Source of the DNA: Endocalyx cinctus
Lineage: Eukaryota; Ascomycota; Sordariomycetes; Amphisphaeriales; Apiosporaceae
Assembly (NCBI GenBank): GCA_001600455.1
Contig: BCKC01000014.1
Coordinates: 310,001 to 374,000 of the forward strand
Length of the DNA stretch: 64,000 nt
Direction of reading: 5' to 3'
How positions within the stretch are numbered: the first letter of the stretch is position 1; every line of letters begins with the position of its first letter. Shown piece after piece: positions 13,410 to 52,240 of the stretch. The position numbers and the translations under genes were made by a program. The notes under the pieces were generated by a model, which saw only the letters and a list, made by a program, of their open reading frames with translations, was not told the origin of the DNA and ran no database searches.

Positions 13410-16096
13410 TTAATATCTTTCTAGCACCCACTGACGCCTCTCGTCATCTGACATGGGGCTCATAAAAGCCATCTCTGCCTTTTTTACGTCGGTATACCGC
13501 CTTACCACCTCTTCCCCTAACGATTCGACCATCGCCTTATCAGTATTCAGGGCATGTAATGCTTCGTTAAGATCTTTAGGGAACATTTCCCCAATACCGT
13601 GCTCTTTTCTTTCATCAACGCTTAGGCACGCCGGGTCGATAGAGCAATCCTTCCACGTCAGCGGATGGCCGCTCGTCCCCGCAGCCAGCAGAGCTGCGAC
13701 GGCCAGGTACGGGTTCATGAGCCCATCTAGTACTTTGATCTCCCAGTGGCTCTTGGAACACTTACGGAGGGGCGTCTCCTTGTTTTGGGTGCCCCAGGTG
13801 GGCCAACGGCCCCCGGCCCAGATGCTGTCAGTCATGCGACTATAACTGGTCATATTACTGTAGGTGAAGGCGATGATAGCCCTAAAATGTTTCAATATAC
13901 CGCCGTAGAAGCGTTCGTACACTTCCGGGTCATCTCCTCCGGGAGATACGATCGAAAGGTGTGCGTGCGAGGCGTTTCCGAACGAGTTGGTAAAGGGTCG
14001 TGGATGTAGCGTTACGCGGAAACCGTATCGCGCAGCCACGCTTTCTATGACCTGTCGCGTATGTAGTAACGTGTCGCATGATTCCAGGGGCGGGAGCGGC
14101 GGCAACACAAGCTCGTATTGTCCCGGCGCCCCTTCGGCATGAAACTGCCTTACTTGAATACCCGCATCTTCGAGAGCAGTAAGGATTTCGTCGGCCGCGG
14201 TAGCAAAGCTCGTCCTGTCGCCCCAGCTGGCAAATGAACGAGCCGTAGACCAGGAATGACCGTCTTGTCGGAGCATGCGGTACTTCTCTGGCTCGTCTGG
14301 ATCAGTTGCCCGCTCTAAAACAATGAATTCAATCTCGAAGCCGAGTAAGAAGTCCAATCCACGAGTCCTCGCTGCTTGGAGAACGCGACGCAGGACTCCG
14401 CGTGGGCAGAGCGCGGCCTCCGAATTGTCTGACTCTAGAAACGAACCAAAGCAGCTTGCGTGTCCGGTGGCAGGACCCAGTTTCAAGCTTGACCAGTCTG
14501 CACGTAAGAGATATTCACCAGTCGCCGTGATTTGCGGAATCAACATGTCCATAGGTAATAGACCGAGGGTCGCCTTCGTAACCGATATTGTGAAGTCACC
14601 ATTGTCATTGGCTAACATGGTGTCACAGACGAAGCGAATAGGGACTAAACGGCACTTGGCCACGGATGAATAGTCATGCCAGTATACTCTGAGGTATTTG
14701 GTCTTCATATCTTGTAGTTGGATAAGAACGGCTTCCTTGGATGATTTGGTAGACGAAGACGCAGTAGTCTGGTTTATCTGGGAGAAGCTAGGTGGCGTCG
14801 TGGCCGTATCTAAATTATAAAGTTTCTTTGCATTGAAGAACAGGACGTCTTGTACGAGCTGTACGGATTGTTTCTCGGATAGCTGCCGGGTTCTCACGAG
14901 TCTAGCTAGTACCTAGCGGTGAATTAGATTCAGTTCATGGCTGCTGTATGACGACTTGAAATGCTCACTGTCTTGAAAACAGATTTCATCTGTGTGGTGG
15001 CGAGTAAGTATGTCTCCGGGAAGTAGTGACCATCGGTGCTCCAGAGTATCTTGTTCCAGGGAGATAGCTCCAGTATCTGAAGAAGTACCCTCTCCTGTCC
15101 TTCACGGCTCAGCTGTGGGAACACAGCACCAATGTCTGCATATACGTTTGCGTGCATCGTGGATAAATAGCCGACTTCCCTAGTCCAAGGATAACCGCCA
15201 TGGAGGAGCACAATAGGAACCGTCGGGTAATCTTTAACAAGAGTGTGTAGGTAGGCTGGAGATGATCTGGATAACGTCAAATCATTGTCGCCCAGACCAG
15301 TATGGAATTGTAGGGGTTTATGTGGTGTCGCGCTTTTGCTAATAGCGAGGGCTGTGAGATGGATGAACATGTGGTTGAGAGGACCATGCTGTAGCTTCGT
15401 AAATAGCTGCGTGTTGTCTAAATGACGGTTCATCAGCTGCTCAAAACATTCCACCACCTCATCGCTCTGTTGGTTATCCTCGTTCCAGGAAGGTACATCT
15501 AAGCCGGTTCGGTAGCAAATGACGGACTTAAATCCAGCAATTTCGGGGTCGGCAATATAGCGCTGAAGCTTTTGTTGGAACTCAGAAGCGATCTCGGCTA
15601 GAGTTTTTCCTGCCTCGGCAATGGAAACTTTTGGTTTGGATTCCGATAAGTTTTGGAGAATTATGTCGGCGGCAAGGGTCTCGATACGCACTATGCGCTT
15701 GCATGTGTTGGTGATAAACTGATCGTGCTCGGAATAGCTGATGAGTTCGTCGGTCTTATCGATTCCGTCGTCGACTAAAATAGTGTCGATACCTTGTAAG
15801 CATTTCGCGATCCATTCTTCATAGCTAGTGTTGCGCTGTTCTTTTAGGTGCGATTCCACCTCCTCCCAAGTATCGGCGCAACCTAAGACGTTGGCCAAAT
15901 CCTGAACCGCTCGGATGTGTGCAAGACTATGTAGGGTATCGCCGCGGGTCTGTTCCGTCGAAGCTTCGGTACTGATGGATAAAAGATTATAGTTTCGGCT
16001 GCTTTTTAAGTTGAGAAGTGGGTGTGCATGGTTATCAATTATCGGTGTATAATCCACAGCTGCGTCGAGGAGTTTGAACTGGGTAGATGACGACAT
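13410..16096 (-). CDS. FluG-like protein: amidohydrolase + glutamine-synthetase-type fusion (876 aa)
   Basis: Two exons (16096-14969 and 14912-13410) sum to 2631 bases, 876 aa, close to the length of Aspergillus FluG. Residues 1 to about 375 are an amidohydrolase-2 domain: DNHAHP metal site, QFHTGLGDND, LLHGGYPW, and LWSTDGHYFPE with the catalytic Asp. After a linker (LFFNAKKLYNLD) residues about 415-876 are a class-I/III-like glutamine synthetase domain: GFEIEF, HAEGAPGQYEL, NASHAHLS and NPYLAVAALLAAG. The single intron lies between the domains, so the two halves look like separate genes unless spliced. FluG is known for triggering conidiation in A. nidulans. Relatives with this GS type ligate glutamate to amines. 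In this neighbourhood a role in gamma-glutamyl-amine metabolism is as likely as signalling. Confidence 0.92.
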
Positions 16097-16969
16097 TATT
16101 GGATTTGCTATTACCTACGCTGCTACCTGTAGGTAAAAGTACTCCGTAGTAGTGCCAAAATTGGGGTGATGGGATAATCTGACAAGATAAATGGGGAATG
16201 TGCTGTTTGTCTAGATTATGTTTAGTTATGAACCCCTTATAGGCCAGTAGAATCAATTTTTGTAACTAAACAGAGTAGGAAACATGAACGACTTTTCAAT
16301 AGGTAAAAAAAAAATTAAGTACTGCTTCAGTAGGTATTTTCCAAAACACCCCCGTGTCGGGATGTAAACTCCCGATGTCAGCCTGCCAGCCACTACCTCT
16401 TCAGGTAGGTAGGTAGATATACCTGTGTAGGTACCTGAGTCTTACAGGTACGTACTCAGATATGGCCCCCAACTAATCTTTTTCCTGATCGATAAATTCA
16501 CATTTATCCCTCGCAGAATTTGGTCAGTTTGATTCGTTCATGTGTTGTATTGATGTAACCATCCGCTGACCACCTAAGTATGCAATGATACATTGTACTT
16601 GTAGTATGCCCATCAGCATACCTGTCGGTCTCCCCGTCTTCCCAGAGGTTGTATGATAAAAATTTCCTTTTGATTCTCTATGGACAGTACTCCGTATTAC
16701 GCATATATTTATGCAAGCAGCCACTTATCAAGGCAATGCAGCCTTACATTATTATAGGTGGACATTAATCATAAGTGGCAAACCCATTTAATTAATTGTA
16801 ATTTCAATATGAAGACAATAAGAATACAAGTTGTAGAACATCAATGTGTTGATAGGCACCCATAGACCATTACAAATAAGCACATTCAACCAGACACAGC
16901 ACGACAAATATCCATCCCGCGTGAACCTCTTTACAGCTGTCCAACTTTCTAAATAAATAATCAGTAATT
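16097..16969. other. intergenic, FluG-like promoter with TACCT/AGGTA motifs
   Basis: No gene is supported. The 16090-16460 part carries many AGGTA/TACCT pentamers on both strands, densest at 16398-16450, forming small palindromes, and an AGATAA (HGATAR) at 16185-16190. The right end is the 3' flank of the permease gene. Confidence 0.45.
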
Positions 16970-22104: not shown

Positions 22105-23733
22105 ATGAATATCCCTGAAGACATGCCAAAAACTTTAGCCATCGAAAACTATGTGACGGAGAAGGAAGAACAGGTCGGAGAAGACCTACTAAACCCAGTT
22201 GAGGCTCGAGCTGAATATGTATGTATGACCGGATCTGTGATCGTTGCGACCTTCGAAATGACATGCGATGGAAAGCTAACACTTACCCTTGATTAGGTAA
22301 ACGTGTACGACCCCTTACGACCCAGAACTTGGCCCCCTAGGCAGAAATGGGTCACGACGCTTCTTCTGTCGATCATCTCTTTTCTACAGCCTGTTGCAGA
22401 AACAGGGTTGGCACCCTTAAAAACAGAAATATCGTTCGAATTTCAGATCGAGTATGAATATCAATGGATCCTAGTCAATTCGGTAATTTTGGCTGGGCTC
22501 GGTATCTCATCCATCGTACTCGCACCACTCTCCGAGGCATATGGTCGGAAGCCTGTCTTATTAGCCGGCAGCATATCCTTCACCCTCTGGAACACTACTT
22601 GCGGATCTGCACGATCACTTAATCAACTTATCGTGCTTAGACTCCTTTCCGGCTTCGGCGCATCGGTTGGTGACGCCGTTGCTGGTGGCGTACTGAGTGA
22701 CTTGTGGGAGGCTGAACAGAGGGGTAAAGCCTATGCCGTCGCTCTGATCGCACCAACACTCGGCACCGCAATAGGTCCGGTCTGCGGTGCTTTTGTATCC
22801 GAGGGCACGAACTGGCGATGGGTGTTCTGGGTCACATCCATAGCGTCAGCCGTTGCTATTATATTTACGTTTTTCTTTTATTCGGAGAGCTTCGAGCCTA
22901 AGCTAAGGCAATCTTCTTACGATCAAACTCGACACCAAGAAAGCTCCACTGGTTATAAAATGTATAATCTATCGGCAATGAGGAAGACTTTTGCCGAGAA
23001 TATTGTACCTAATCTGAAGCGTCCATTTGTAATGCTCGGAACTCAAGTAATCGTACAGCTCCTGGCCGTCTACATAGCCCTACTGTACGGTATCTTGTGG
23101 TTATATCTGTTCATATATCCACAGTTGTGGGAGCAACAGTATCATGAGAGTGTTCGAATCACGAGCCTGAATTACTTGTCTTTCGGCTTTGGTTTACTTG
23201 CAGGTGCTAACGTAGCCGGTCACTTAAGCGACTATATTTATACATCTCTTAAGGCGCGAAATGGAGGACGCGGCCGCCCGGAGTTTCGTGTGCCTACTAT
23301 GGTGATTGGCACGACCCTGACTCCTGCCGGACTTTTGTGGTGGGGATGGGCCGGAGAAGCAAGACTGCACTGGATTGTCCCCAATATCGGCAGCTTTGTT
23401 TTTGCAATGGGCGTGTATATCTGTTCTGGTTGCGTATCAGTATACACCATTGATACGTACACCACCTACGCTGCATCTGCTATTTCGACAAATCTTGTGG
23501 TACGAAGTCTTACAGCGGCACTCTTCCCGTTATTCGCGCAGTATATGTTTGATGCGCTCCGCTTTGGCTTGGCCACAACGACTTTAGCAGCTGCATTCGG
23601 AGTGACCGGAACGGTTGTTATGGCTGTGTTGTGGTACTTTGGCGCGGAACTTAGGGCGCGTAGCCCGTATTGTGCGGCAGAAGTGGGTAAAATAAACTCA
23701 GGTAATTCTATCATCACACCGGAGATTGCTTAG
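22105..23733 (+). CDS. MFS multidrug-type exporter (DHA1 family), 516 aa
   Basis: Two exons (22105-22218 and 22297-23733), 1551 bases. The first exon is a short acidic cytosolic tail, spliced AEY|VNVYDPLRPRTWPPRQKW, the family entry to helix 1. Helices 2-3 carry LAPLSEAYGRKPVLL (motif A) and LRLLSGFGASVGDAVAGGVLSDLW. Helix 5 shows the antiporter-type GTAIGPVCGAFV and NWRWVFWV. Twelve spans are seen. It is probably a proton-coupled plasma-membrane exporter of a small molecule. It is upstream of, and on the same strand as, the 2OG-oxygenase gene and a second exporter, which suggests a metabolite module. The ATG at 22105 is the first in frame after a stop. Confidence 0.92.
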
Positions 23734-24414: not shown

Positions 24415-25583
24415 ATGGAGGTGAACATACTCGACTTCTCCAAATTTACTTCGGGAAGCGAACCTACACGTCTAAAGCTAGCACATGAGCTCGTTGAGAG
24501 TTTGAAGAACGATGGATGTGTGACGCTAACCAATGCAGTGGTTCCAGAAAATACTGTCACCAACTTCTTAAATGTGGTATGATAGTTATTAGACATAACC
24601 GTATGCTTCTCATTACCGGCTCTCTGTACTGACTCATCATTTCGGATAAATTTAATAGGCCCCTGGATTTTTTGCCGCCCCACTTGAGACGAGGACTCAG
24701 ATTGGTATTCAGGAAGGACCAGACCCCCAGCGAGGCTTTAGCAAGGTCGGCTCTGAGCAGTCTTCAAAACTCAACCAGAAAAATCTTGAGGGACATGAGA
24801 GCTGGGATAATCTCTTAGATGCCCGCGTATGTACTCAAAAACATGCTATTATATCAGCTTCATCTAATAATTTAAAAGGAACATTTTGACGCCGGACCAC
24901 CGGACGACGAACTGTTTCCCAACAAATGGCCAAGCAATGCCAATCTGCCCGGGTTCCGGGATCTTGTCGAGACTTGTTGGTATGAATTTCAAGAAAGTGC
25001 CTTGAAAATAATGGATGCGATAGAGTGTGGATTGGGAATCCCCTCCGGTGCCATGGTATCGTACTGCCAACCGGGTGCCAGCGAGATCCGCCTCAATCAT
25101 TACCCTAGGATGCCACTCAAACTCTTTGACGAGGGTACAACCAAGCGGACATGGCCTCATGCCGACTTAGGAGTCATCACATTACTATTTCAAGATGGTG
25201 TAGGTGGCTTAGAGATTGAAGATCGCTCCAGATCCACGCAGGACCAGAAAGCCTTCGTGCCCGTACTCCCTGCACGCGCTGGGGACTCACTTCAGGTCAT
25301 CTTGCTCGCTGGTGAGACCTTAGAGCGCTGGACGAATGGTACTATCCCTTCTGGAGTGCATCAGGTCGCGATGCCACAGTCGATGACATCCTCCGCAGAT
25401 AGCGAGTGCCCCCAGAGATTTTCAGGTGCCTTCTTTCTCAAGGCTAACCGAAATGCATCGGCTGCGCCGCTTGAGCATTTTGTTAACGTAAACCGCCCCG
25501 CCATGTTTGATAATGTTTCTGCATTGGAATTTCAACAGCGGATGGTGAAAAAATTATATGATCATGTGATCACTGTTGGATAA
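24415..25583 (+). CDS. 2-oxoglutarate/Fe(II)-dependent oxygenase, isopenicillin-N-synthase-like (344 aa)
   Basis: Three exons (24415-24576, 24659-24826, 24879-25583) sum to 1035 bases. The N-terminal DIOX_N-like region has VTLTNAVVPE and the APGFFAAPLETRTQIG block. The C-terminal jelly roll carries the facial triad: WPHADLG (His and Asp) and GVHQV (distal His), followed by RFSGAFFL, whose Arg binds 2-oxoglutarate. RLNHYP is also typical. Such enzymes hydroxylate, desaturate or cyclise a small molecule with O2 and 2-oxoglutarate in the cytosol. Lying between two exporters and near a UstYa-like gene, it is probably a tailoring enzyme. The product cannot be inferred. All key residues are present, so it should be active. 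Confidence 0.93.
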
Positions 25584-26829
25584 AAATTACATAAAAATAG
25601 TACTGTGGAATGGAAAAACGAAGGTGATGATAATAATGATGATAGTTAGAAGTATGAATGATTCTATTGCACATAATCATTCAGAAGTAAGACTTAAAGT
25701 TCCTACGTCTGACCTTCTAATTATCTATTTATCATTGGCCAATATCAGAACAATCATAGGGAGACTGCCGAGAACTTAGATTAAGGCTTGAGGATAGATA
25801 TAATTAACACGCGATCAAATCCCATCAGTCAACAAATTGCTCGTTATTCTAGAAAGTGGTTTACTATTTTTATTTGTCCTTTTTCGTGACCCCCTATATT
25901 CATCAAATTAGGCCGGGAAAGCCGCCCCCTAAAATGTTGTCGACCTGTTGTTGTTAAGCTCATCGGCCAGTTCAGCCGTCCTGCAAATTCTCAATATCTA
26001 AGACCGAGTCTTTAATATAGCTGGTTATGCAACCTTACCTAACGTTATTTTCGCATGTATCACAGAAGACTTCGTACGTTGGCGAATCGGAGTAATTATC
26101 GAGTAATTAGAACTAATCCACTTCATAATATAATTATATCGCTACCTCCAAAACTATTACTAAATAATTAAATGGAGTAGCTTAAACAACTAACTGGCTT
26201 TCATCGACCAGGCTCTGTCTTTGTTGTAACACGATAGTAATCCTTTGATGACAGGGTAGGCAATATAGCCTAGGTTGTTATATTTTCAAATAGTTTTTTT
26301 TTTTTTTTTTTTAATTGTTACATTATACCGACGATATGTAAAGTTCCCCCGTAACTAATGATCTGATGTTGGCGCTGTAGTTGTTCGGACCGATTGGTGT
26401 CATGATGTGATACTAAGAGGAGATATGTATACAGAGTTTACAGACTTCTCGGGTAGTTTATTGCATCAAAATTATGACGATAAGATCTGTTAACCTAATT
26501 TACATGCTGATTCCTCCTCACTTAGGGACGTAGTATCGTAGCTACTCTGCAGCTTAAACGGCGTAGGATTAAGTTACATGACTACGGTGGCTCTATTTAA
26601 TTACGACGTAGCAGAAGGATTGAAGGAAGGAGAATTATTCTCGTAAGTGCTACTTCCAGCCGAGTGTATGCGTTTTTTGTATTCCATTTTGCTTATTTGC
26701 CAAGGTACAATTGTTCTATGCATCACCTCTAAGCTGTTTTACTATTGTTGCCCCTAAAACTAATTTACATCCTTTCCTTCAATATTCACGCAGTTATCAT
26801 CCCACTCGTATTATTCTTAATAATTAAAC
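25584..26829. other. intergenic, 1.2 kb
   Basis: AT-rich with a T18 run near 26297 and no supported gene. It ends in the promoter of the second MFS gene. Confidence 0.5.
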
Positions 26830-28407
26830 ATGAAACTAACTACAGGCGAAGCTGTCGCTTCAGAAAATTCGACAGCACAGCCATCTCCGATACACTACGA
26901 GTTATTGACATACTCGAGTAATATTTTCGCTTTCTTGAATAACGATGATATTACACGTCAGAACCTATCCTTACCACCTTTACCTTCCCTTTCTCAATAC
27001 GATAGTCCTCAAAGTTGGTCCTCTGCTAGAAAGATATTCGTAACATGGTTATCATGCTCCACCACCTTTGTTACGACATATACACCCGGGGCCTACACGG
27101 CTGCGTTGCCTCAATACAAGACCATGTGGGGTGTGAGCGACATCGCCGTCTATGCGGGTCTCAGCCTCTTCACTTTCCTTTTTGCGCTCGCTCCGATGTT
27201 CTTAGCGTCCTTCTCTGAGCTAATGGGACGGCAACCAGTCTTCCTAACTGCCGGAATTATCTTTGTCATCAGCCAAATAGGCTCTGGTGTTAACTCTTCT
27301 TTCGCTGGCTTGCTAGTGACAAGAGCTTTGGCAGGTATCTCCTCTTCCGTCTTCAGCACCGTCGTCGGAGGCGTTATCAGCGATATTTACGTCGCCAGGG
27401 ATAGAAACACAGCGATGGCCATATTCACAGGAGCGGCACTGTTCGGTACGGGAATAGGACCACTCGTTTCGGCAATAATCACACAACACCTGAGTTGGCG
27501 GTGGGTATACTACCTACAGGCCATCACTTGCGGGCTGGTCGTCTTGGCACTTTTCGCGTTCTTCCCCGAGACCCGAGGTAGCATTTTACTCAGTCGCAAG
27601 GCGAGAGCACTCAATGCCTGGTACGATAGCGTAGGCGATAGTGCAATTTCTCTCGCTCCCGTGCGTTGGACAGTCACCGACGAGGAAGATCGCAGATCCG
27701 TGGGTCTTTTGATGAAGACGTCCATCGTTCGGCCGATCCAGCTTCTTTTGACCGAGAGTGTCGTCTTTTGGTTCTCTCTCTGGATGGGCTTTGCGTGGTC
27801 CATTCTGTACTTGACTCTCGAGGCCGTGCCGTTGATCTTCGAAATGGCGTATGGGTTTTCCCCACAGGCTAGTGGCCTCATATTTGCTGCAACATCTGCA
27901 GCCGCTCTGATTGGAACCTGCACAGCGGTGTTACAAGAACGAGTGATTACCAATCAGTCATATTGGTTTAACAGATTCGCCTTCAATGGCCAGCCCGAGG
28001 CACGCCTAGTTTTTGCGTGTCTGCAGAGCCTTCTCCTACCCATTGGCTTGCTATGGCTCGGAACTACCGCAAGGCCTACCATACCCTGGATTGTTCCCGC
28101 TATATCGCTAGGTTCTATCACATTAGGTATTTTCAGCATATATTTGGCTGTTTTCAACTACCTAGCAGATAGCTACCATTCTTACGCCAGCTCAGCAATA
28201 GCTGCCCAAGCTTTTACGCGTAATATTTTTGCAGCCGGTCTGCCTTTGGCTGTGAAACCTATGCTAAACTCCCCACTTGGCATCGTCGGTACGGGATCGC
28301 TTTTGGGCGGAATCGGCTTTCTTATTAGCGTAGTTCCGTGGGTACTGGTTGTTTGGGGTCCTCGGATTCGGAAGAGGAGCCGTCTAGCTATGATAGATAT
28401 GACATGA
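26830..28407 (+). CDS. MFS multidrug-type exporter (DHA1 family), 525 aa, intronless
   Basis: A single 1578-base frame. About 65 N-terminal cytosolic residues end in DSPQSWSSARKIFVTW, the DHA1 entry motif. SFSELMGRQPVFL is the motif-A loop between helices 2 and 3, and GAALFGTGIGPLVSAIITQHLSWRWVYYLQ is the motif-C antiporter region in helix 5. Twelve spans are seen. It differs clearly from the exporter at 22105, so this is not a recent duplication. It probably exports a toxic or secreted small molecule at the plasma membrane. A module with two exporters around one oxygenase suggests export of the pathway product plus self-protection. The absence of introns is unusual for this window. Confidence 0.92.
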   Translation: MKLTTGEAVASENSTAQPSPIHYELLTYSSNIFAFLNNDDITRQNLSLPPLPSLSQYDSPQSWSSARKIFVTWLSCSTTFVTTYTPGAYTAALPQYKTMWGVSDIAVYAGLSLFTFLFALAPMFLASFSELMGRQPVFLTAGIIFVISQIGSGVNSSFAGLLVTRALAGISSSVFSTVVGGVISDIYVARDRNTAMAIFTGAALFGTGIGPLVSAIITQHLSWRWVYYLQAITCGLVVLALFAFFPETRGSILLSRKARALNAWYDSVGDSAISLAPVRWTVTDEEDRRSVGLLMKTSIVRPIQLLLTESVVFWFSLWMGFAWSILYLTLEAVPLIFEMAYGFSPQASGLIFAATSAAALIGTCTAVLQERVITNQSYWFNRFAFNGQPEARLVFACLQSLLLPIGLLWLGTTARPTIPWIVPAISLGSITLGIFSIYLAVFNYLADSYHSYASSAIAAQAFTRNIFAAGLPLAVKPMLNSPLGIVGTGSLLGGIGFLISVVPWVLVVWGPRIRKRSRLAMIDMT

Positions 28408-29308: not shown

Positions 29309-29536
29309 TCATGCGTTTTCAGTATCAGACGTCTCAGGTTCCTCGAAGTAGCTCTTGATAAAGTTGCTCCAGGCCGCAGCATTCCAGTTGCGGGAAGATG
29401 GTTCGGTGGCTGCGAGAGAGAAAAAAGGTCATATTTGAGATAATGCTCTATAGAAATTCAGAGGTAACTTACGTAAAGCTGAGGCTGAGGCCGCAAGGGC
29501 CGGAACCAGAAGAGAAATGATAAATGCGAGCTTCAT
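29309..29536 (-). CDS. small secreted peptide, 54 aa, two exons; possible precursor peptide
   Basis: Exons 29536-29473 and 29409-29309 (165 bases) are joined by a canonical 63-base intron with GTAAGT donor, branch-like TGAC and pyrimidine-rich CTCGCAG acceptor. The product starts MKLAFIISLLVPALAASASA, a textbook signal peptide with a predicted cut after ASA. A mature part of about 34 residues follows, rich in Trp, Asn, Ala and Glu (NWNAAAWSNF, then an acidic EEPETSDTEN tail) with no Cys. It is too short for usual gene finders. It lies between an exporter and a UstYa-like gene, the neighbourhood of fungal RiPP precursors. However, it lacks Kex2 KR sites and tandem cores, so it may instead be a plain secreted peptide or effector. 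Gene structure is likely; function is unknown. Confidence 0.65.
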
Positions 29537-30489
29537 GGTGACTTGTTTTTGATTCGTATGGTGTTTGATTGGTAAAATTGACTTGAAAATTTCGATGGGT
29601 AGATTTTTGTATCAAACCACGTAGAGTGTAGGGCAGTTGTAATTTATATGCTGATGAGGCTTGCGAGAATCTATGAAGATTGGTGCACACGACATTTTCA
29701 TCAATATACCCCTGTTTCTATATCTGCCTTCACCAGCTTTTGGTTGGTTCATGGAATCTACGCGGCGTCACACTCGGAACAGTCCCGTCCACCAAACCAG
29801 TCTGCTTTTCCGTAAAAAGAAGATTGCAGATATGCCGATGGGTAGTATTATATGCACATGAATCCTCCAACATTTCTTTTATCTTCAACTTCATGACATT
29901 GGTCTACCGTAAAGATTACAAATATGTATGTCGTATTTATTATGTTCTGGGCGCTTCCATGGTAAATATCACAGTTGTTAGAGTCCACCAGACCAATAAC
30001 TCGCGTATGCAGAGTTCTTTTGTTTGGCGATAGGATAACTGCATATTGAACTGCAATTTTAATTCTTGTGAGATGTTAGCAGACATACTGGCTTACAAAA
30101 GGTAGATTATAGATACAACCATGATATAACTATGATCATGAGAGGTTCATATGTATCACCAAATTGGGAAAGTGAAAGCAAAAGTAGATATCTAAAGGAA
30201 ATTGGTTATTCATTAATACAGTGATTTTATTCATTGATCCCTTACGAATGTCAACTCTACTCTAATCAGAGTACTTCCTCCTCATCTATCTCTCTATCCG
30301 CCATTTACCCCACGACTCTTTGTTTTCTCTAACCGTTAACTTTCCGAGTTGAGTATATCTCCCGAGCTTTCAGGAACAAGCTTAGGGTATCTTACTCTGA
30401 TCTGTAGCGTATCCAGAGAGAAGCCGTATTTCCCATGAGGTTTAATCTTTTCAGATCCCCTTTTCCTCACAGCATATTCTCCTTGCGCT
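29537..30489. other. intergenic, divergent promoters of the peptide and the UstYa-like gene
   Basis: No supported gene. The 0.95 kb gap serves both the peptide gene (minus) and the UstYa-like gene (plus), so common regulation is possible. Confidence 0.5.
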
Positions 30490-31641
30490 ATGTCTTATGA
30501 AAATTTCTCCCTGCGGCGCTTTCTAAACCTCATTTCTAAAAGCAACACCCCCTTTTCTTATCAAGAGGTAGGAGACAAGGAGGTTGATCCTTTTCAGTCT
30601 TCTATGAGTGAAGACTCTAGGGACAGTGATGCCTTCATCCCCGAGGAACAGCCTAACGCTCCGCCAGGCCGGTCAATATGGCAAACATCGCTACGACTCA
30701 TGCTTGAAGTAGGATTACTTCTAGCATCATTCATAATACTTTGGGTAACTTCCCATAACCCTAAGTCTCTCCACGCCAGAAACCTAGAATGTGGCAGATT
30801 GCTTGGGCAGTGGCGTATGTGCTCACAGTATTATTTATTCATGGGAATTATTTATTAACAAACTACCCCAGTTCCGGACGCGGAAGACGGTGTTGAGTAT
30901 GAAGTGCAAAAGTTCCGAGGGAGCTTTGGCTGGCAGACACCTTGGACCGGCATTGGACCCGAAGTTGATGCCGCTTGGGACAATATTACCGATGGTATGA
31001 CCTTCCTTTCTTTCTACCTCCGCCTCATAAGTCTATTGTCTTGACTTCCAATCATGTACCTAATCAACACGCTTTGGCGACTTGCATCTTCTCCGATGAC
31101 TGCAAGCCGATAATCGTACTATAGTAATAATGATGACCAAACAGGTCCTATAGGTGGCGCTATTGGTATTTCCGAAGAACAGTGGAAAGCGGTCAATGAG
31201 TATCACGAGTACCCAGTGCAGTTAGATCGAGACCATGGAACAGGCCAGTATCTGGCCAGCCTTGATGTCTTCCACCAATTACACTGCGTAGATCTCCTAC
31301 GAAAGTCGATTCACCGTGAATACTACGACCAGCACGAGGGGTCTTTTGCGGGCGCGCCTGAGTCAATTGTCCAGGGCCACCTAGAGCATTGCGTTGAGAC
31401 ACTACGTCAGACCCTAATGTGCCACGGCGATATCAGCCTGCTTACCTACAATTGGGTGGAGGGACGCTCCATGCCTTACCCTAACTTTAACACTATACAC
31501 ACATGCAAAAAGTGGGACAAAATAGTGAACTGGAACGAGCATCGCGATGTTACGGTAGAATGGGAGGATGGCATGGGCAAGAAGATGTTAAGTCCGCCAT
31601 TGAAACCTAAGGATGTAAAAGGGATGAAAACGCCTCCATGA
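30490..31641 (+). CDS. UstYa-like (DUF3328) membrane protein, 314 aa
   Basis: Three exons (30490-30814, 30872-30994, 31145-31641) total 945 bases. The layout is type II: about 70 cytosolic residues, one membrane helix (LMLEVGLLLASFIILWV), then a lumenal domain. That domain holds both family signatures, HQLHC at residues 193-197 and HLEHC at 228-232, the proposed metal-binding HxxHC pair. FHQLHCVDLLRKSI and HCVETLRQTLMC match the family well. UstYa-family proteins catalyse oxidative macrocyclisation or chlorination of RiPP and other peptides (ustiloxin, phomopsin and cyclochlorotine pathways). The neighbouring secreted peptide gene makes it a candidate modifying enzyme, but UstYa-like proteins also occur in non-peptide clusters. 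The protein is longer than many members because of its N-terminal tail. Confidence 0.92.
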
Positions 31642-34006: not shown

Positions 34007-35610
34007 TTAAAAGACCAGATCTCGTGTTAATCCAGTGAACTGGGCTGAGAACGCCGCGGAAGCAAGTTCATAAGCCTTGCCATTGGCAAGCATCGCCCGA
34101 GCGGACTCATTTTCAATTGTGCCTAATAGTTGAGAGAAGCTATTGTTGAAGACTGCGGCCGGAATGGCCAACCCCCAGATAGATCCGAAGCTCCGAATGA
34201 AGGCGAATGTGGCTGTACTGATTGCGGTATCACTGTCTTTTAGAGGGGCTTGCACAGGAGGCAGAAGACAGGCTATCGGGATGCCGATACCTAATGCAGC
34301 TAGGATCTCAAAAATAACATATAAAGCCTTATGTGAGTCGCGATTAAGTATCGAGCATAGACCGAAGCTAAGTGTACAAAAGGCAAAACCTGCGAGGTGA
34401 AAAGGTTTATACCGTCCTGTTTTGGCCATCATCCCACCGCCAAATGCGGAGCCTACAGGAAAGAAAAAGATAAAGGGAAGTAACTGAATTCCCGATTCTC
34501 TAGGAGATGCACCACGTACAGACTGAAAGTAAAGAGGAAACATGAAAAGAGGCCAGTATATGACGATGGTGTTCGAAAAAGCCAAGAAAAAGGCGACGGC
34601 GGAGGTTCGGTTTGTAAATAAGCGTGGCGGAGCAATAGGGTTCTTGCATTGCGGCAATCCTTGCCAAATCACGAAGAGTACAACGCCAAAATGACCGGCA
34701 AGAAGCCCTGATAAGACGCCGCCGTCGGACCATGGTTTCGTCGAGCCGCCGTAAGCGATGGCCCAAAGGATGGCTATAGTTGACGCCACGATCAAGGTTG
34801 CACCGGCCCAGTCGATGCTGAGAATCTGCTGTATAAAGCTATCGTTGTTTCGTGATCGCGACAACCGGAGCCAGAAAACGCTCATGACCAAGCACAATCC
34901 ACCAATGGGGAGGTTGATGTACCAAATCCATCGCCACTGGCCTGCATCGGCCAATGCCCCAGATATGACAGGGCCGGCAGAAGATACGGTAGAGGAGACT
35001 GCAAACATCAATCCAATATATGTGCCACGCTCACGCAAAGGCATCAGGTCTGAAATGATGAGCTCCACCACTAACGTAGGTTAGGCGTAATAGTTAGCGG
35101 TAGGTATTTTATTGTTAAATACAAGTGATGTATGTTGCCTTACTCATATTAATTCCACCTGCGCCTAGGCCCTGTACTCCTCGACCAGCAACGATTATGG
35201 CACCCGACACCGCTCCGCCTATCATGCCGCTTCCTAGCACAAAGAGCGCCACCGTAGCGATAAAAACCCAGCGTCGGCCCCAAAGGTCCGATGGCTGGCC
35301 TAAAAAGGGCTGCACGGCGGCCATAGTTAAAAAATAAATATTGACTACCCAAACATAACCCGCACCAATATTGAAGTCATGCACAATGGTAGGGAGCGCC
35401 GTCAAGCGCGCTGATGGTAAACGCTAGCATCAATGCACTCATAATGATCTAGAAACGCACACCCTTGGTTTGGGGACTGCCGTGCCCGGTGATGTGACCG
35501 AGAGTGTCCGGAAGCGAAGGTGAGACATCGCTACTTAGGTTAGGTATAACGCTTTTATTAAGATCGGACTCGCCGGTAGACCTCTGTCCCTCGGTGGAGA
35601 CCGTCACCAT
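34007..35610 (-). pseudogene. MFS drug transporter (DHA2-type) broken by nonsense and frameshift
   Basis: The gene starts at 35610 (MVTVSTEGQRS) and ends in the stop at 34007. The frame meets TAG at 35449-35451, exactly where the first helix begins (VRF-stop-IIMSALMLAFTISALDG). A small indel near 35405-35410 then shifts the frame before ALPTIVHDF. Everything after reads well: GQPSDLWGRRWVFI, GRGVQGLGAGGINM, a normal intron (donor GTAAGG, acceptor before 35078), QWRWIWYINLPIG, and helices to the C-terminus. DHA2 carriers have 14 spans and export drugs or fungal metabolites. The two lesions are upstream of nearly all membrane spans, so the product should be dead unless translation restarts internally. 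It lies between two P450 pseudogenes. Confidence 0.8.
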
Positions 35611-38506: not shown

Positions 38507-41500
38507 TCAAGAGACTTGATTGACGACATTCTCTGCCAAGGATGACAGAGATACTGTGTTGTCCAACAAATCTAAGAACGGCACGTTGATATGAAAGACT
38601 TGATAGAACCAGGTCCTAAACTCTGCTGCAATCATACTGTCCATGCCATAAACTGACAGTGGCTTCGCAACGTCAACTCTTTCAAGTGGGAGTAGGACGA
38701 GACTGCTGAATCGTCTCATGATCTTTTCGGTAATAAGTTCATGCAGGTCCCTCCCCGACTCTAGTCCATTCATTATATCAGCTGAAAACCGACCCTGGTG
38801 TTTTTGCGCTGTCATATGACCTTCCCCTTGCACATCACGTCCTAAAAAACCAGCTCTTGGGTCGCTGAGATTCATGTTTGTCACTTCAAATCCGGCATTT
38901 TGAAGAGCCTCCAATCCTAGAGTTTCCATACCCGTTAATATGTGGCAGGATGATGATTCATCGTACACAGGTACGCTTTCCTGATTTTTCGATAGTGCTG
39001 CGTCTACCACAAGAAGCATCTCATCCTCGTTCATAGGATGGATCCCATGACGACGCAATATGGCCTCGATTTCTGGGTTCTCGTGGAGATACCCGACCTC
39101 AGATATCATTCCGAGTCCAATTGATGTGGCCGGGAGACCTAGATGATGCCGATAGCGAGCAAAAATATCGAGAAAGAAACTTGCCGAGCAGTAGTTGGAC
39201 TCTGTTGCCGTCCCAATACTTCCAGATACAGAACTGGTCATCAAGAAGAAATCCAATTCATCATCTTTCCCTTGAATGCTATTGTGAATATTCCAGGTGC
39301 CTGAAACTTTTGGCTCCACCGCTCTATGCCAGGCCTCGTATGTCATAGTCGTAAATAACGTCTCCTGTAAGTAGTAAGTATGGTAATATCTTCTTAATCA
39401 AGAGCCAGATTATCGCTTGCTCAAGCTTTAGGCTTACCTGTAGTCCCATTGCAGCTTGAATTATCCCACCAATTTTCCCTTGGATGCAAGCAATGGCAGT
39501 TTCCACGTCCGAGCGACAGCAGACATCTCCCTGAACTACCTTACATGTAGCTCCTGATAGCTCTAGGTCTTCTACTAGTAAGCGAGCCGCGGGATTTGAT
39601 AAGCCAGACCGCCCGAGGAAAACAAACTTGCGGGCTCCTCGAGAGACCATCCACTTAGAAAGGCTTCGACCGAGACCACCCAGGCATCCCACCATAAAGT
39701 AGGTCTTTTCGGAATGGAAATTAGATCTCCATGTAGACTGATATGCTAAGATCTGTGCACTCTTATCTTCTAGGCTCACCCTTATTTTACCTATGCGGTT
39801 CCGCGACGAGAAGCGCCGCATAGCATCAGAAACCTGGGAAGCGTCAAAATATTCTACAGGAGTGATGCTTGATATCTTCCCGCCTCGGAATAGATCCAAA
39901 GTTCTGCCCAATAGCTTAGCCCACGCATTTTGGAACTCTGGGCGGCTGTCGTAGTACATATCACTCAGATCAAACGCCGTAAATGTCTTACTATGAAGGA
40001 ATCCGTCCATGTCGAGCTTGCCAAACTCGGTCATGTCTCGTTTCCCAATCTCGACAAATCTGCCGAATGAAGCACAGCATTTCCAGCTTGCGTGAAGAGC
40101 CTTCCCGGTGAGGGAGTTTAGAACAACGTCAACCCCGCTCCCTCCCGTGGCTTCAAGGATCTTCGGATAGAACTCTTCGTCACGAGAGCTATAAATGTTT
40201 CCTAGAGGGATTCCGAACATGCGTGAAAGGTATAGCGCTTTCTCATCACTCGATACGGTTGCAAAAATCTAGTTATTAATTTAATTAGCCATGCAGTTCG
40301 TATTAGGAACAATGGAATATAAACTTACCTTGGCCCCGAGGTGTTTGGCGACTTGTATTGCGGCATTTCCGACGCCACCAGCAGCCGAGTGTATGAGTAC
40401 CGCCTCTCCGGGCTGGAGCTGTGCTCGGTCGACCAACGCATAGATTGCAGTTGAGAAGGCAATAGGCATTGTACACATGATGTCAAAACTTTCGCTGTCT
40501 AGAAGCTTCTGGCAAGCCCAAGACGGCACGATTTCTGTTGTCTGGAAGTGCCCCGGGGCCATTACCACGACGCGGTCGCCACACGCTAAATCAGATACTG
40601 CCCCACCAACTCTCACGACTACTCCGCAGTACTCAAGGCTACAGGTAGCATCCCTAGTGTCTACTTTACCAGCGAAAGCGTAGAAATCTTTGGCATTTAA
40701 TCCAACGCACTTGACATCAACCTGAACCTGATTAGGTCCTAGCTCAATATCGCTCAGGGGGGCGACTGATTGGAAATATAGAGTATCAAAATTTCCAACC
40801 TTATCGATCATAAGCTTCGCGGGCTCTACGGAACTAAGTGAATAAGTAGCCCGTTCCCTGTTGTATCTCTGTTTGAAGTTTGTATTTAACTCGTTATCAG
40901 GCATGAAGCGACTGATATGGACGACGCCATTGCTCTGCACAAACTCAAAGTCAATTGCTTTAGAATCTTGGCTCAAGACCGCGGCCAAGTTAGAGAACAG
41001 GCATTTCTCTTTCTCCTCATTGTGTGTATGGAGATGATCGATGTCAAAGACATAAAATTTTATTGCAGGTTGTTCCATCATCACAGCCCGTGCTAACCCG
41101 AAGGCGAGAGCAAAGTTGGGACGGGGATTGGCTAACAGATCGCAAGAGGTAACCCATACTAGATGGGCTGCGTTTCCGGTAACATATTTGAGACGGTCCA
41201 GGTCGTCTTGGCAGATTGTATGTAGAAGAGGGCTCTTAATCTCGAGAAGCGAAAAAACGATGGACCCGGGCCCAATACTCCGCTCCGAAATATCACTCAG
41301 CTGAACCTGTACGACGTTATTGCCCATGAGACGGGTCAGGTAAAGCGCGAAGCGTGATGAGAAGTCGGAATTTTGTCTGTTAATAATATAGATAGGTGCA
41401 TTGTGATATTCTTCATGGGGTCTTTGGGTAGATTCTAATCGACCAACTATGATACGTTCATGCTGTTGGAGATTAACTTCGGTGGTGACAAATCCTTGTT

Positions 41501-44500
41501 TCTTCAAAGGATTTTCACCTAAAGAAGTGCTCAAACATAGAGCTACCCCATTTTGACCTAGCAACTTTTTGATTTGACCAATCTTTGTGTGGCAATAGGC
41601 TTCAGTGGAATCGTGAGAGGGAAGCAGCACTAGGTCAAAGCGCAGATCCGATGTTTTGGTGACTGATATGACGGGAGGTGAGACCCCCTGGGTCATATTT
41701 ACGACGTATGAGTGTAATTCATCGGCTTCACTGATATAACCGACGCTCCAATTAGATATAGGCGTTTGGGACCGCATATGAGCTTCCTCTATATTTTCTT
41801 CGCCATCTAGGCTTAATTGAGAACATCGGAGCTCAAGGATTCGAAGACCTGGTATTTTATGTGCGAAAAGAGCCAATATTGCTCCTATGCTGTCAGAAGC
41901 TTTTTTGACTCCATCGCACTGTGATATGGATCTCATTTTCTCCACGTACTCAGATAGGTGCTTCTGTGAGATCATCCCAAGTCCAAGGACGTCTGGCATC
42001 CATCGGACGCGCATCATTGGCTCCCTCTTTTTCTGTGACGAGCTCAAAGACCCGGTATTGTATGGAACTAATTTGGCCTCATTTATCTGACATAAAACGT
42101 TTCCTGTCTGGTTAATTAGCTCAGAAGTGAACTCAAATGCTTGGAATCCTATAGGTTTTGAAACCGAGAAGATTGAGTGGTTGAGAGGTGAGTCGATCAC
42201 CATTCTATCCGCCTGAACAACGATGGAACCAAATGATACCGGAACTTTGGCATGAAGCTCTCTTATAAGTCCGGAGGACGTTGAAATCAATGCCGCTTGT
42301 ATCATTGCGTCAATCGTTATCGGGTGCAAAACATACTCTGGCCCCACGTTCTTGTTGAGTCCTTGAAGAAGCGGGGCTTGCGCTGCGCATAATTGTTTGT
42401 CACGCCCGCGAGGAACTCTAACCTCTTGTATAGACTGAAAGTGACTCCCAAATTGTAGCCCAACTTCGGTCAGCCGGCTGTACCATGTGCGAGCCTGCCC
42501 TGGCACTAGAGTTTCGTCTGAGAAAACGCGATTTCGATGTATAGGTTGCGAGTCACTGTAACACATCACTGTGCCAGTAGCTCGTGTCATAGCTGTGCCT
42601 TCATGGAAAGACGAAACTCTGAACTCGTAACTTTCTCTGGAGACTTTTGCAGGTTGAAGAGTTGTGAAAATCTCTACAACATCGCTATCAGACATGGATA
42701 AGGCAGCAAGGATAATGACTTTTTCCAATCGGAACGTGATACGACTCTGAGATCGAGTGTCAAATACTTGGCTGGCTGCTTCTAGGACCATGGCAACGTA
42801 TGCAGCTCCAGGAAGAACTATGGAACCTTCCAGTTTATGGTCACAAAGCCAGGCAACGTCATCCACCTGCAGTTTGTTGTACCATGTATTCTGAAGCCCG
42901 TCCCCTCCCGGTGTCAAAGAACCAAGCAGTTCATGGCGTGGGTATTTTCTATAGCGAAACTCACTGCTCTCCCGAGATTCGTGCCAGAGTGCTTCACCGT
43001 ACGTCCAGGGGTAAGAAGGTAAGTTTGTTAGGACTTTGGGACCTGAAGCTCCAGTCTCTTGTATTACCCCTAGTTTGTTAACTTTGTCCCACGCAATGAG
43101 ATGACCTTGGAGATACAGATTTCCTATCATTTTGAGGACTGTCACAACGTCATTCTTTTTACGTGATAATGCTGATATATATGGGACATCTGCGGTCGAA
43201 ACTTCAAGATAGCTTCTGATCTGGGTAAGGGGCATTTGAAGTGTGGAATGTGGCCCGATCTCGATAATCTGAACGGCTCCTGCACCAATGATATTGCTCA
43301 TGGCACTAGAAAACAGCACGGGCCTCTCTAAATTTGTTCTCCAATAGAGAGCGTCTGGAGCGTCTGTCTTTTCTTCCCCAGTTACTGATGAAATCCATCT
43401 GACACTATGAGAGTTGACAGGCGTTTCATTCCCAATCTTGAAAACTAGAGAAAGCAGACTTTCATAGTGGGAGCTCACTATGGCCATGTGGTGGGAATGA
43501 TAGGCGCTTCCGTCTGTTGGAAATTTACGGGCAAATATTCCCCTTTGATGCAGAACTGTTAACAAGACGTCTATCGCATCGGCATCTCCAGAAATCGTTA
43601 CGTTCTCCGGTGAGTTGATGCAAGCTATGCTCAAGCGCCGATTCTGGCCGGCGGACTCGATCTCAAGTGCGGCTTCTGCTGCAGAAACTCCCACAGCCAT
43701 CATGGCGCCGTCTCTTCTTCCATACGCCTTCACAGCATAGCCACGGTAGTAAGCTATCTTTATCGCCTGTGATAAAGACAACCTCCCGGCTGTGAAGGCT
43801 GCTGCTATCTCGCCTGACGAGTGACCAACCACTGTTGAGGGGCTAATTCCCCATGATTGGAACAAAATAACCATGGCTATTTGAACTGCGGTACAGACTG
43901 GTTGAGATATATCTGCATCGTGGATTCTGCTTGTTTCTATGGGCTCGCTAATTATCTCTTGAAGAGTCCACTTTGGGGAATGAGGAAGACTGTGAATATA
44001 TGTATCCATCTCGTCTATAGAACTAGCGAAGATTGGAAACCTTTCATAAAGACGTCTACCCATTTGAGGCCATTGTGCCCCTTGCCCTGTGAATAGGAAC
44101 GCCACTTTATTAGCTTTATCAGGTGCTCTCTTAGACATCTGTATCGCATCATCCAACACTAGTGCTGCTTCGAGGTTCTCGTTATCTGCCACGAAGTATG
44201 TGCGATAAGAAAAATGGGTTCGTCTTAAGCTCAGCGTATAAACTAAATCAAGTGCTCTCTTGTTACTGCTGGCAAGATAGGATTGAAGCTGTCGAATTCG
44301 ACTCTCCAGCGACCTAACACTCTTAGCTGAGACGGGTACTAAATACCAAGCGTCGTGATGGCCATCTCTCTCCTTTCTCGCTTCTGATGAGATAGGATCG
44401 AATAAATTAGATGACTGAACGATTACGTGTGCATTCGCGCCTCCGTATCCAAACGAGCTGACACCTGCTCGACGCAGTACTGAGGTGCTAGTAAGCGCAG

Positions 44501-46083
44501 GCCAAGGTGTCAATCTAGTGACAACCTCAACGTTCCAATCCTTGAGTTTGATATTCGGATTCACTGTATTGACTCCAACAGTGGCTGGTATGAAACCGTT
44601 CTCAATAGCTAGCGCAACCTTCATAACTGAAGTGATACCGCTAGCTGCTTCGCTATGTCCCAAATTGGTTTTCACTGACCCTAATAGTAAGGGCTCCTTT
44701 CGGCCACTAAAAACGGTCGAAACCCCCTGAACTTCGATCGGATCGCCTACTGGGGTGCCCGTACCGTGACATTCAATATAGGTTGTGTCTTCAAAGTCGA
44801 AACCACTAGTTTCGTAGGCCTTGCGAATGACTAGTTCCTGTCCGACTGGAGATGGTTGAGTGATTCCAGGCGTTCGACCATTTCTGTAGTGTCCGTAAGC
44901 TTGAGTAAAGGCTCTAAATAATACGATGGGAAAGAAACTAACGAATTCACTGCCGTGGCCGGAATGATTGCTCGGATAGGGTCATTGTTCTCCAGAGCAT
45001 CTGCCAAACGTTTAATAAAAAGGCAGCCGATTCCTTCCCCACGACCATATCCATCGGCGTCTATGGAAAATGTATGGCAGGTTGACGTAGCGGAGAGAAT
45101 TCCAGCTTTCACGGTTGCCATTTGCTGCTGGGGAGCTAAAATCAAATTAGCTCCGGCTACGATTGCCGCGTCGCATTCATGGTTGTTGAGAGCAGTGCAT
45201 GCTAGATGAAGAGCATAAAGCGAAGAGGAGCAAGCTGTGTCGAGTACCATGCTGTTATCCTACCGTTAGTCCCTAAGCTGTACAGCTTGTAGGTAAAATC
45301 GACGGGTTTTCATATCGTACCTTGGCCCTTTCAAATTGAAAACATGGCTAATGCGATTTGCCAAGATCGCTGTTCCCATTCCGGTAGCAACATATCTGTG
45401 ATAGTATTCGGCGTCTCGATTCTGAATTGTTTGGTAGTCCATTGAGAAGCTCCCTACGTAGCAGCCTATGTTGGCGCCAGATGCCACGTCCAAGCCAAGT
45501 CCCGCACTCTCGAATGCTTCGTACACAACTTCCAGAAGCTTGCGCTGATGCGGATCCACTATTTAGCGCACCGGTAGTCAGTCATACCACTTGTAAATCA
45601 AAAGAAGATGGAACTAAGCTAGATGATATAATTATTTGCTAGTTCATAATACATATCACTTACTGTACTGGGCTTCCAAAGGTAGGAGATCGAAGAATTC
45701 GTTGTCGAAGAGTCTCGGGTCTTCCTGAAGAAAGTAACCCCCTGAAGTTGTCATGCTGCCTGGTCTATTTAATCCTCCAGGATGATAGAAGGCCGGAGCA
45801 TTGAATCGATTAAAGGGTATATCACATTGTCCTGTCTTTCCTTCGCATAAGAAGTCATAAAGCATGCTGGATGACTTGATGCCACCAGGTAGGCGACATC
45901 CTATGCGGAGTAAGAGGGTGAGCGGGTGTGCAGAGAGTGAACAGCAGTAGAGGGTGACATACCCATCCCCACGAGGGCAATCTGCCCAGGAGGCATATCT
46001 TTGTATGCAGAGGTAGCATCTACTTTAGGATATCCTGGGCCACTTGATTCGGCACCGTTTCTCCGGGATGAATTAGTTGACAT
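38507..46083 (-). CDS. highly reducing type I polyketide synthase, 2382 aa
   Basis: Seven exons (46083-45963, 45900-45664, 45558-45321, 45251-44943, 44883-40329, 40268-39438, 39364-38507) sum to 7149 bases with no lesion. The KS spans about residues 30-455 with catalytic Cys206 (DTACSSSL), His341 (ECHGTGT) and His378 (NLGHSEAASG). The AT is at about 560-880 (FTGQGAQW, GHSSGE). The DH is at about 950-1240 with its catalytic His in DHKLEGSIVLP. A methyltransferase-like region near 1330-1500 has LELRCSQL instead of the glycine-rich SAM motif, so C-methylation is probably lost. The ER is at about 1690-2000 (AAGGVGNAAIQVAK). The KR is at about 2000-2230 (catalytic Tyr in SNYCSAS). The ACP is at 2300-2382 (GMDSM). 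There is no thioesterase, so release must be in trans. It makes a reduced linear polyketide. It is divergent from a cupin gene. Confidence 0.96.
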
Positions 46084-50353: not shown

Positions 50354-50900
50354 GATTACCCTACTGAGTTGATTTGAGTTAATGATAATTAGGGAGGGAA
50401 AGGCAAATATCACAAAGGCCTAATTAAGAGACTCCACTGGGGACAGAAAGCTAGCTTGGAAAATATTACCATCTAACCCATTTTTTCATAAACTATGTCC
50501 CATATTTCAATTCAACGACAGCATTACGGATCACATAAAGTTCGCTTCTGACAGAGGAACTAGTCCACACACCGAGTGAGTGAGATGTGAAGTGAGCACA
50601 GACTACAAAAGCAGTTGGTTACCAACTGTAAGGTATCCATCCTGTCTATCTAATACGTAATGTAAGGCAACATAAAAAGACGAAGTAACATGAACGATGT
50701 GCGGCAAGAGGTTTTCACCCGACGTTGCATTATTGGAAAGTCCTCGCAGCTCGTGCGGTCCATAATTTATTTACTATCGCATCCGTTCCAGGTTTCAATA
50801 GAGACAGTATGTCAACCGACCTATGGAACACTCCACTGCCCCATATATACACCATATATCTCCACTTTTCCCTCGAATATAACTTGAAGTTTTTTTAATA
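50354..50900. other. P450 promoter region
   Basis: Ordinary composition with no supported gene. It borders the AT-rich island. Confidence 0.5.
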
Positions 50901-52240
50901 AAACTGGCTATAAAACATCTTTAATACTAACCACCCCTACTAATTAGTACTTTAAAAATAATCTATTAATCAATAACCCTTATCACCAATAAATAAGCAA
51001 TTTTGTTTATATTATATTAAAATAATTTATTAACCTATCACTAAGTATACCATAAATACTTATTCATCTTCCTTTTTTCTTTTATTATTTACTATATTAT
51101 AACCTAATAATCATATTTAAACAAAAAATATTTAATTCTAAAAAATTATTTATAATAATTTAGTTTTAAAATAAAAAAAATAATATTTTATATAAATATA
51201 TTTTATATTATTATATATATACTATAAATTATTAACTTATATATAAATTAGATATTAAATATTCTTAGACCTATTTGTTACGAACCAACAAACAAGAGGC
51301 CAGGAAAGTAGGCCAGAAAAGAAGAAGGCCAGACAGTAAGCCTAATCAGTGGAGCTCCACGGAACAACAACGGACCGAAAATCACGTGACTGCTACAGAC
51401 TGCTACGGGAGCAAGAAGGAGAGCTACGAACTGCTCCAGGAGCAACACGGAGCCAGCAAGTTGGTAGAAGGAATGAATGGATATATAAGGATGGACATTT
51501 CCTATGTAAATAGTCAGTCATTACTTCTACAGTTATCAATCTAAGTACAACCCTTAAACAAGGTTGATTGAAGTCACAAGTAAATCTTCACACGTTTACC
51601 AATACCATACTGCTTATTAGTTTTTCACTTACTTACTTTAAGAACACCAACCCCATTGGCCCATATTACCAGTCAGGTAGTACGGATCGTGACACTATTA
51701 CCCAATAATATAATAATTTTTTTATAAATATACAAAACAAATCTATTAATTTACTCCAATTTAATCCATTATAAGCCGAAAAATTTACCAATCAACCTAT
51801 ATCAAACATAAAACATAATAAACTAAAAGATAATATCTCCTCAAGTAATTAGACTTATAAATATAATCCAGATAATATTAATAATAAATTTATCGAAAAT
51901 CCCTAAGCTAAAAAACCTTTTAATAAATTTTTAATTCCTCCCTATATACTTATATCATCTAAACATATAAACCCGAAAATTAATCAAATAAAGTATCAAG
52001 GAGTATACATTCAAGAAATAATCTATACTATAACTATTCCTAAATATCCAACTATATCCCCTAATAATATTATATATATTATACTAAAAAATGAATTATA
52101 ACTACAATATTAAAAATTACCCTGGAAAGCTATAAATATTTATAATTTTCTCCTAAATTACTTATATACTAATTAAAATAAATACAATATTTTTCCAAAA
52201 ATATTTAAAAAAAAGCTACTACTAGTATATATTTCAACAA
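50900..52240. other. AT-rich island, probably RIP-mutated
   Basis: Outside the LTR at 51276-51694 the sequence is almost wholly A and T, in long TA/TAA runs with hardly any CpG. This is the look of transposon remains after repeat-induced point mutation in Pezizomycotina. No coding frame survives. Confidence 0.75.
51276..51694 (+). mobile_element. solo LTR, 419 bp, with 5-bp target duplication
   Basis: It begins TGTTACGA and ends TCGTGACA (TG..CA with near-perfect 8-base inverted ends). It is flanked on both sides by CTATT (51271-51275 and 51695-51699). A TATATAAGG element near 51481 fits an LTR promoter. Base composition is normal, unlike the AT-rich DNA around it. This points to insertion and LTR-LTR recombination after the surrounding sequence was mutated. 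No internal retrotransposon sequence remains. Confidence 0.88.

Follow-up and report, generated by a model that had tools for sequence, protein, structure and literature searches.

The 54-residue secreted peptide and the UstYa (DUF3328) enzyme encoded divergently from it probably form a small UstYa-type RiPP locus, in which a single-core precursor would be cleaved after one Arg, not at the KR repeats that Kex2 recognizes. Support for this reading comes from the fungus's own genome, in which clear repeat precursors share the divergent slot and the gene structure of the peptide gene. The initial annotation had proposed the secreted peptide and UstYa as a RiPP-type pair; the core of that claim is supported, since repeat precursors occupy a like slot and the neighboring PKS is not co-distributed with UstYa among the matches listed. 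The two exporters and the 2OG oxygenase are putative members of the locus.

The peptide gene and its UstYa neighbor

We scanned a genome of 44.76 Mb in 15 contigs. The stretch of DNA under study, called the window here, is the 64 kb between positions 310001 and 374000 of contig BCKC01000014.1 (C14, 378,099 bp). The right end of C14 lies in a telomere array of 15.8 TTAGGG units, which is reached some 4 kb beyond the window, and the window is thus subtelomeric, with about 36 kb between the UstYa gene and the chromosome end; a TTAGGG array was also looked for at the left end of C14, and none was there. The features of the locus are collected in Table 1.

Table 1. Features of the window around the peptide/UstYa pair (window positions)
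Feature	Position	Strand	Remarks
MFS transporter ORF	22297..23733	+	Pfam scan
2OG-Fe(II) oxygenase	24415..25583	+	3 exons, hand-spliced, 344 aa; nearest solved relative ucsF
MFS transporter ORF adjoining peptide gene	26824..28407	+	Pfam scan
Peptide gene, exon 2	29309..29409	-	remaining mature part PTEPSSRNWNAAAWSNFIKSYFEEPETSDTENA and stop
Peptide gene, intron	29410..29472	-	63 nt, GTAAGT...CGCAG (3' part, CTCTCTCGCAG)
Peptide gene, exon 1	29473..29536	-	64 nt, start codon and signal peptide, ends in phase 1
Shared divergent promoter region	29537..30489	.	953 bp
UstYa (DUF3328, PF11807) gene	30490..31641	+	exons 30490-30814, 30872-30994, 31145-31641; 314 aa
Third MFS ORF	34007-35080		Pfam scan
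P450 ORF	36659-37441		Pfam scan; absent from the initial annotation
HR-PKS	38513-45913	-	Pfam scan and alignment to homologues; absent from the initial annotation

The product of the peptide gene, which occupies two exons on the minus strand (29309-29536), is the 54-aa MKLAFIISLLVPALAASASALPTEPSSRNWNAAAWSNFIKSYFEEPETSDTENA. That a gene of this size, with a signal peptide and a canonical intron, lies here had been proposed from inspection and is confirmed by the gene model, the scans described below, and codon usage. A residue count likewise bears out the proposed mature part of about 34 residues, acidic and free of Cys and KR: downstream of ASA (residue 20) there are 34 residues with 2 Trp, 1 Tyr, 0 Cys, and a net charge of -4. 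The 54-aa product has no dibasic site, and no repeat was seen when one was looked for, so that the standard precursor signature is missing, which counts against a RiPP reading. Upstream of the ATG lie a TATAAAT element (~110 bp away), a CA-rich leader, and CACCATG.

We scanned for genes of this kind under strict criteria: a rule-based signal peptide, a consensus donor, a branch-like site, a pyrimidine-rich acceptor, and a product of 40 to 120 aa. The ATG of the peptide gene was the sole pass in the 64-kb window, and first-order Markov sequence amounting to 40 copies (2.56 Mb) gave none. No strong match was returned from 188 kb of other DNA of the same genome, although sister precursors are located there; the strict scan is therefore insensitive. 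Under a relaxed one-intron scan, 4 ATGs passed in 305 kb (one of them a transporter exon by eye), and 30 Markov windows, each 64 kb long, together gave 1. The coding log-odds of exon 2 are 6.8 bits, compared with a mean of 3.3 for coding stretches; among 3000 intergenic stretches with an open frame, 0.6% score as high. Since the scan criteria were picked after the peptide was known, the figures do not give exact probabilities; they show a model that is unusually gene-like, far from chance and coding-like in codon usage.

No relative of the peptide was found among 5.8 billion proteins in a search that demands three shared 5-residue words, and a search for paralogues in its own genome returned only the peptide itself. 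The words that the peptide/UstYa intergenic region has in common with neighboring genes are short and mostly AT-rich, with no shared CGG-CCG pair, and are uninformative either way.

The last-exon ORF of the UstYa gene matches PF11807 with an E value of 1.7e-40, and its 314-aa protein carries HQLHC at 193 and HLEHC at 228. The gene model is supported by three orthologues, which measure 312, 310, and 317 aa. With start codons 953 bp apart, the UstYa-like gene with both HxxHC motifs is divergent from the peptide gene, as initially annotated. The gene is complete, and its product is predicted to be a membrane-anchored copper oxidase. An AlphaFold2 model of the orthologue from X. intraflava, not of the window protein, has a mean pLDDT of 77 and places a membrane helix at 61-88 and the two motifs in helices 188-202 and 220-241. 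Among solved structures, none of the 76 Foldseek matches to this model with E <= 10 reached 0.001, and the best match by sequence had an E value of 0.52.

The orthologue group comprises 17 rows, 49-84% identical to the window protein; a species is named for 14, and 13 of those 14 reach at least 59%. The group is spread over Xylariales, Diaporthales, Hypocreales, Eurotiales, Helotiales, Dothideomycetes, and a lichen metagenome. No UstYa relatives were present in bacterial/archaeal or viral contigs. The genome itself has 48 exon matches to PF11807, which group into ~31 loci. DUF3328 proteins were only recently shown to use copper; the cyclochlorotine hydroxylase CctR holds two copper ions per monomer, and changes of its HxxHC residues abolish activity (PMC12435403). 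CctR, as described there, has the arrangement HxxHC(x)nHxxHC together with a transmembrane helix, as does the window UstYa. Its substrate is a nonribosomal cyclic peptide, unlike the one proposed here.

The divergent slot at other UstYa loci of the genome

The genome offered further UstYa loci at which the same position could be inspected. Our main sample comprised nine UstYa loci with flanks, 248 kb in total (eight with ~10 kb per side plus 88 kb of C14), and a second sample comprised 17 short-flank pieces (15 loci) with 1.5 kb per side. Both were scanned for a signal peptide followed by a phase-1 intron, and the slot was defined as the 2 kb divergent from UstYa, which amounts to 24,000 of 496,198 strand-bases in the main sample.

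Three clear repeat-type precursors lie divergent from UstYa genes. The one at C2:5582077 is secreted and has six EPDTIYYQKYI cores with dibasic sites, the one at C7:1752767 has two cores of the EPTYIRTYLGG type (EPTYIRTYLGGKR and EPTYIRMYLGGK), and the one at C8:1618658, in a short-flank piece, has three Trp-bearing repeats (DNDEIWLW), two of them preceded by VAPR, and no KR sites, at a distance of ~770 bp. Non-repeat secreted peptides occupy the slot at C8:2550926 (45 aa) and at C1:6932511, the exact end of which is uncertain. At C4:3927422, also in a short-flank piece, a weakly repetitive 60-aa peptide lies divergent at ~770 bp. A two-repeat precursor at C6:3178538 is in tandem, not divergent, orientation. 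Single-Arg sites (VAPR, DAR) recur at C6:3178538 and C8:1618658. Two overlapping in-slot phase-1 matches at C8:1390837 look like chance, the short-flank scan gave three matches of phases 0 and 1 outside slots, and no phase-1 candidate was found at three of the nine loci (C2:2245k, C2:58k, and C6:3236k).

Two of these places have features of their own. The region C2:5575586-5582700 is a classical ustiloxin-type locus, with three UstYa matches and six cores separated by KR sites. Adjoining the UstYa gene and 45-aa peptide on C8, at ~2553.9-2556.4 kb, two ORFs lie side by side (piece coordinates 858-2009, minus strand, and 2428-3384, plus strand), with a MurB C-terminal domain (plus a FAD-binding domain) and an EPSP-synthase/MurA-type domain; bacterial cell-wall-like enzymes are unexpected in a fungus.

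Across the nine loci the scan returned 14 ATGs, 7 of them inside slots (binomial P of 1.6e-6), compared with a Markov expectation of 0.2 phase-1 matches in slots. Removal of the window's peptide locus left 6 of 11 in the slot (P = 3.6e-5), and further removal of two likely chance matches left 4 of 9 (P = 0.002). When the two canonical repeat precursors were taken out as well, 2 of 7 remained, a weak enrichment (P = 0.08). The counts under these successive exclusions firmly establish the divergent slot as a precursor slot and suggest that non-repeat peptides are enriched in it on their own.

Matches in slots and outside them numbered 7 and 7 for phase 1, 2 and 7 for phase 0, and 0 and 8 for phase 2 at the nine loci, and slot placement differed between phase 1 and phases 0 and 2 combined (Fisher P = 0.04). 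The intron directly after the signal peptide is in phase 1 in all five finds made blind to phase (C14, C8:2550926, C2, C6, and C1); those at C7, C8:1618658, and C4 are excluded from this count because their scans required phase 1. Introns of phase 1 close to the signal peptide are frequent among secreted proteins at large, which counts against the RiPP reading. The same holds for the in-slot phase-0 matches, the chance-like pair at C8:1390837, the three loci that gave no phase-1 candidate, the tandem orientation at C6, the failure of protein and genome searches to find a relative or paralogue of the peptide, and the presence of an HR-PKS nearby.

Relation to known systems and a proposed pathway

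In the dikaritins (ustiloxin, phomopsin, and asperipin-2a), as here, a gene for a secreted precursor lies beside a DUF3328/UstYa oxidase gene, and the asperipin-2a locus, as described in PMC7329392, has a single DUF3328 gene like the window locus. The window peptide differs from dikaritin precursors in that any core it may have is present once, dibasic sites for Kex2 are absent, and it has two Trp plus one Tyr. No tyrosinase, methyltransferase, or peptidase was found among the 10 window ORFs scanned with Pfam. According to PMC12048977, these three enzymes do not occur in all known dikaritin-type loci. Because Kex2-flanked repeats, a defining dikaritin feature, are absent, we regard the window pair as resembling the dikaritins and do not file it as a member.

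The six-repeat pair at C2:5575-5582 kb is, like the window pair, divergent, with a phase-1 intron after the signal peptide, and one of its enzymes is the best paralogue of the window UstYa in the genome by E value (40% identical); its six dibasic-flanked cores and its three UstYa matches set it apart. The peptides at C8:1618658 and C8:2550926 share more with the window peptide, being divergent from UstYa, Trp-bearing, and acidic, with a phase-1 intron and no dibasic [KR]R site, whereas the former has three repeats and the latter contains two Cys. When the genome was searched with the 45-aa peptide and with the window peptide, no similarity of the C8 peptides to the window peptide was detected. 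The initial annotation had set a single-core type apart from repeat precursors. The lack of KR repeats stands, but the contrast is softer than proposed, since precursors in this genome apparently form a graded series, with six repeats at one extreme and none at the other.

In the pathway that we propose, the precursor would enter the secretory pathway, and signal peptidase would cut after ASA. A further cut would probably follow residue 28, a lone Arg (SSR|NWN), releasing NWNAAAWSNFIKSYFEEPETSDTENA, whole or trimmed, as the stretch that contains the core. UstYa, which by analogy with its relatives would be an oxidase that is anchored in the membrane, faces the lumen, and carries a binuclear copper center, may then cross-link or hydroxylate aromatic side chains (Trp or Tyr) of this stretch, and export of the product would follow. 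Coregulation of the peptide and UstYa genes, and any role for the 2OG oxygenase or the transporters, are likewise conjectural. We infer single-Arg cleavage from the VAPR and DAR sites in the sister precursors and from the products of mushroom repeat proteins, which, on heterologous expression, were apparently cut after a single Arg (PMC9769878, as described there).

Such precursors could be easy to overlook. Across fungi, DUF3328 genes peak beside repeat-precursor genes (PMC7329392), and two fungal RiPP surveys screened for signal peptides, tandem repeats, and Kex2 sites (PMC7329392 and PMC12048977). The lichen survey reports UstYa-type clusters without repeat precursors and gives a single core as one possible reason (PMC12048977). 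No proven single-core UstYa precursor is announced in the literature that we covered by title and start of abstract, a scope mostly outside subscription journals, so that an earlier description is possible. It is conceivable, and we put it forward tentatively as somewhat doubtful, that fungi have an overlooked class of tiny, single-core, often Trp-bearing UstYa-dependent RiPP precursors that are released at single Arg sites and lack Kex2 repeats. What would give them away is not repeats but a place divergent from UstYa and a phase-1 intron directly behind the signal peptide. In this genome the peptides at C14, C8:2550926, C4:3927422, and possibly C1:6932511 would belong to the class and merge gradually into precursors with repeats. 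If position and gene structure do mark such precursors, orphan UstYa enzymes gain testable substrates, and the vague possibility of a single core becomes a search rule with a short list of peptides.

Neighboring genes and alternative readings

A highly reducing PKS (HR-PKS) ends 7 kb from the UstYa gene. It appears intact: its alignment to a homologue of 2350 aa covers residues 28-2346 of the latter. In-frame stops near 40.27 kb within it probably mark a small intron. Its seven best homologues (of the best 120 among 7308 matches) are 46-52% identical and come from Parahypoxylon, Xylaria digitata, Monosporascus, X. palmicola, Annulohypoxylon, Nemania, and Scytalidium, among the matches listed. 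With best listed homologues mostly from Xylariales and at no more than that identity, the cluster appears to be an orphan. Of the five best UstYa rows, four are from Xylariales, as are the best six PKS rows (of 120 among 7308).

It is therefore worth weighing whether UstYa tailors the product of an HR-PKS cluster at ~34-50 kb while the peptide is an unrelated small secreted protein, adjacent by chance. Clusters for polyketides and nonribosomal peptides do include DUF3328 proteins (atpenin, astin, and cyclochlorotine; PMC12048977), and the intact appearance and closeness of the PKS favor this reading, yet we consider it unlikely. UstYa orthologues (49-84%) and PKS homologues (best 52%, among the matches listed) are mostly in different species: when the UstYa-orthologue taxa were compared with 76 names from the best 120 of 7308 PKS matches, each row being a 90% cluster under one name, a single one of 14 was shared (X. 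intraflava), there at 40% PKS identity. Nor did tblastn for the PKS give a match in the other UstYa loci examined. The HR-PKS is thus probably not the general partner of UstYa, and a lineage-specific recruitment may have taken place. A non-peptide synthase as partner, which the initial annotation had named as telling against a peptide substrate, is present 7 kb off, but among the PKS matches compared a homologue occurs in 1 of the 14 taxa.

The two exporters and the 2OG oxygenase do lie within 9 kb, at confirmed positions (Table 1). The nearest solved relative of the oxygenase is ucsF (E of 5.4e-58), which acts on amino-acid building blocks, and a weakly similar 2OG match at C6:3238-3239k, ~2 kb from the UstYa gene at C6:3236k, is a faint hint that such an oxygenase takes part. 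Both observations would suit a reading in which UstYa, the ucsF-like oxygenase, and the two left-hand exporters act on an amino-acid-derived or nonribosomal substrate, with the peptide as a bystander. We judge this quite improbable: no NRPS was spotted by eye in the window ORF lists (10 ORFs of which were scanned with Pfam), and the peptide gene, which separates the 2OG/MFS side from UstYa, takes up the slot that precursors have at other loci. The oxygenase and the MFS transporters may have a role in the pathway.

There is also a slim chance that the peptide acts unmodified, as a small secreted effector or an antimicrobial, and is merely coregulated with UstYa. Effector genes often are short, secreted, without relatives, and near telomeres, and the peptide, with its signal peptide, short length, subtelomeric position, and lack of a detectable relative, fits that profile. 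Typical effectors are cysteine-rich, however, and typical antimicrobial peptides are cationic, whereas this peptide lacks Cys and is negatively charged overall; this reading would, moreover, leave the repeated divergent pairing with UstYa without explanation.

Three other places in the window deserve mention. The segment 60662-62363 (+) shows ketosynthase-only similarity (26-39%), with no other PKS domains matched nearby, and is a second, probably partial, PKS. An AT-rich block at 50750-52500, in which 250-bp windows fall to 9% GC, lies beside ORFs at 48.4-50.4 kb that look P450-like by eye. At 13410-16114, two adjacent minus-strand ORFs are, by eye, glutamine synthetase-like and amidohydrolase-like.
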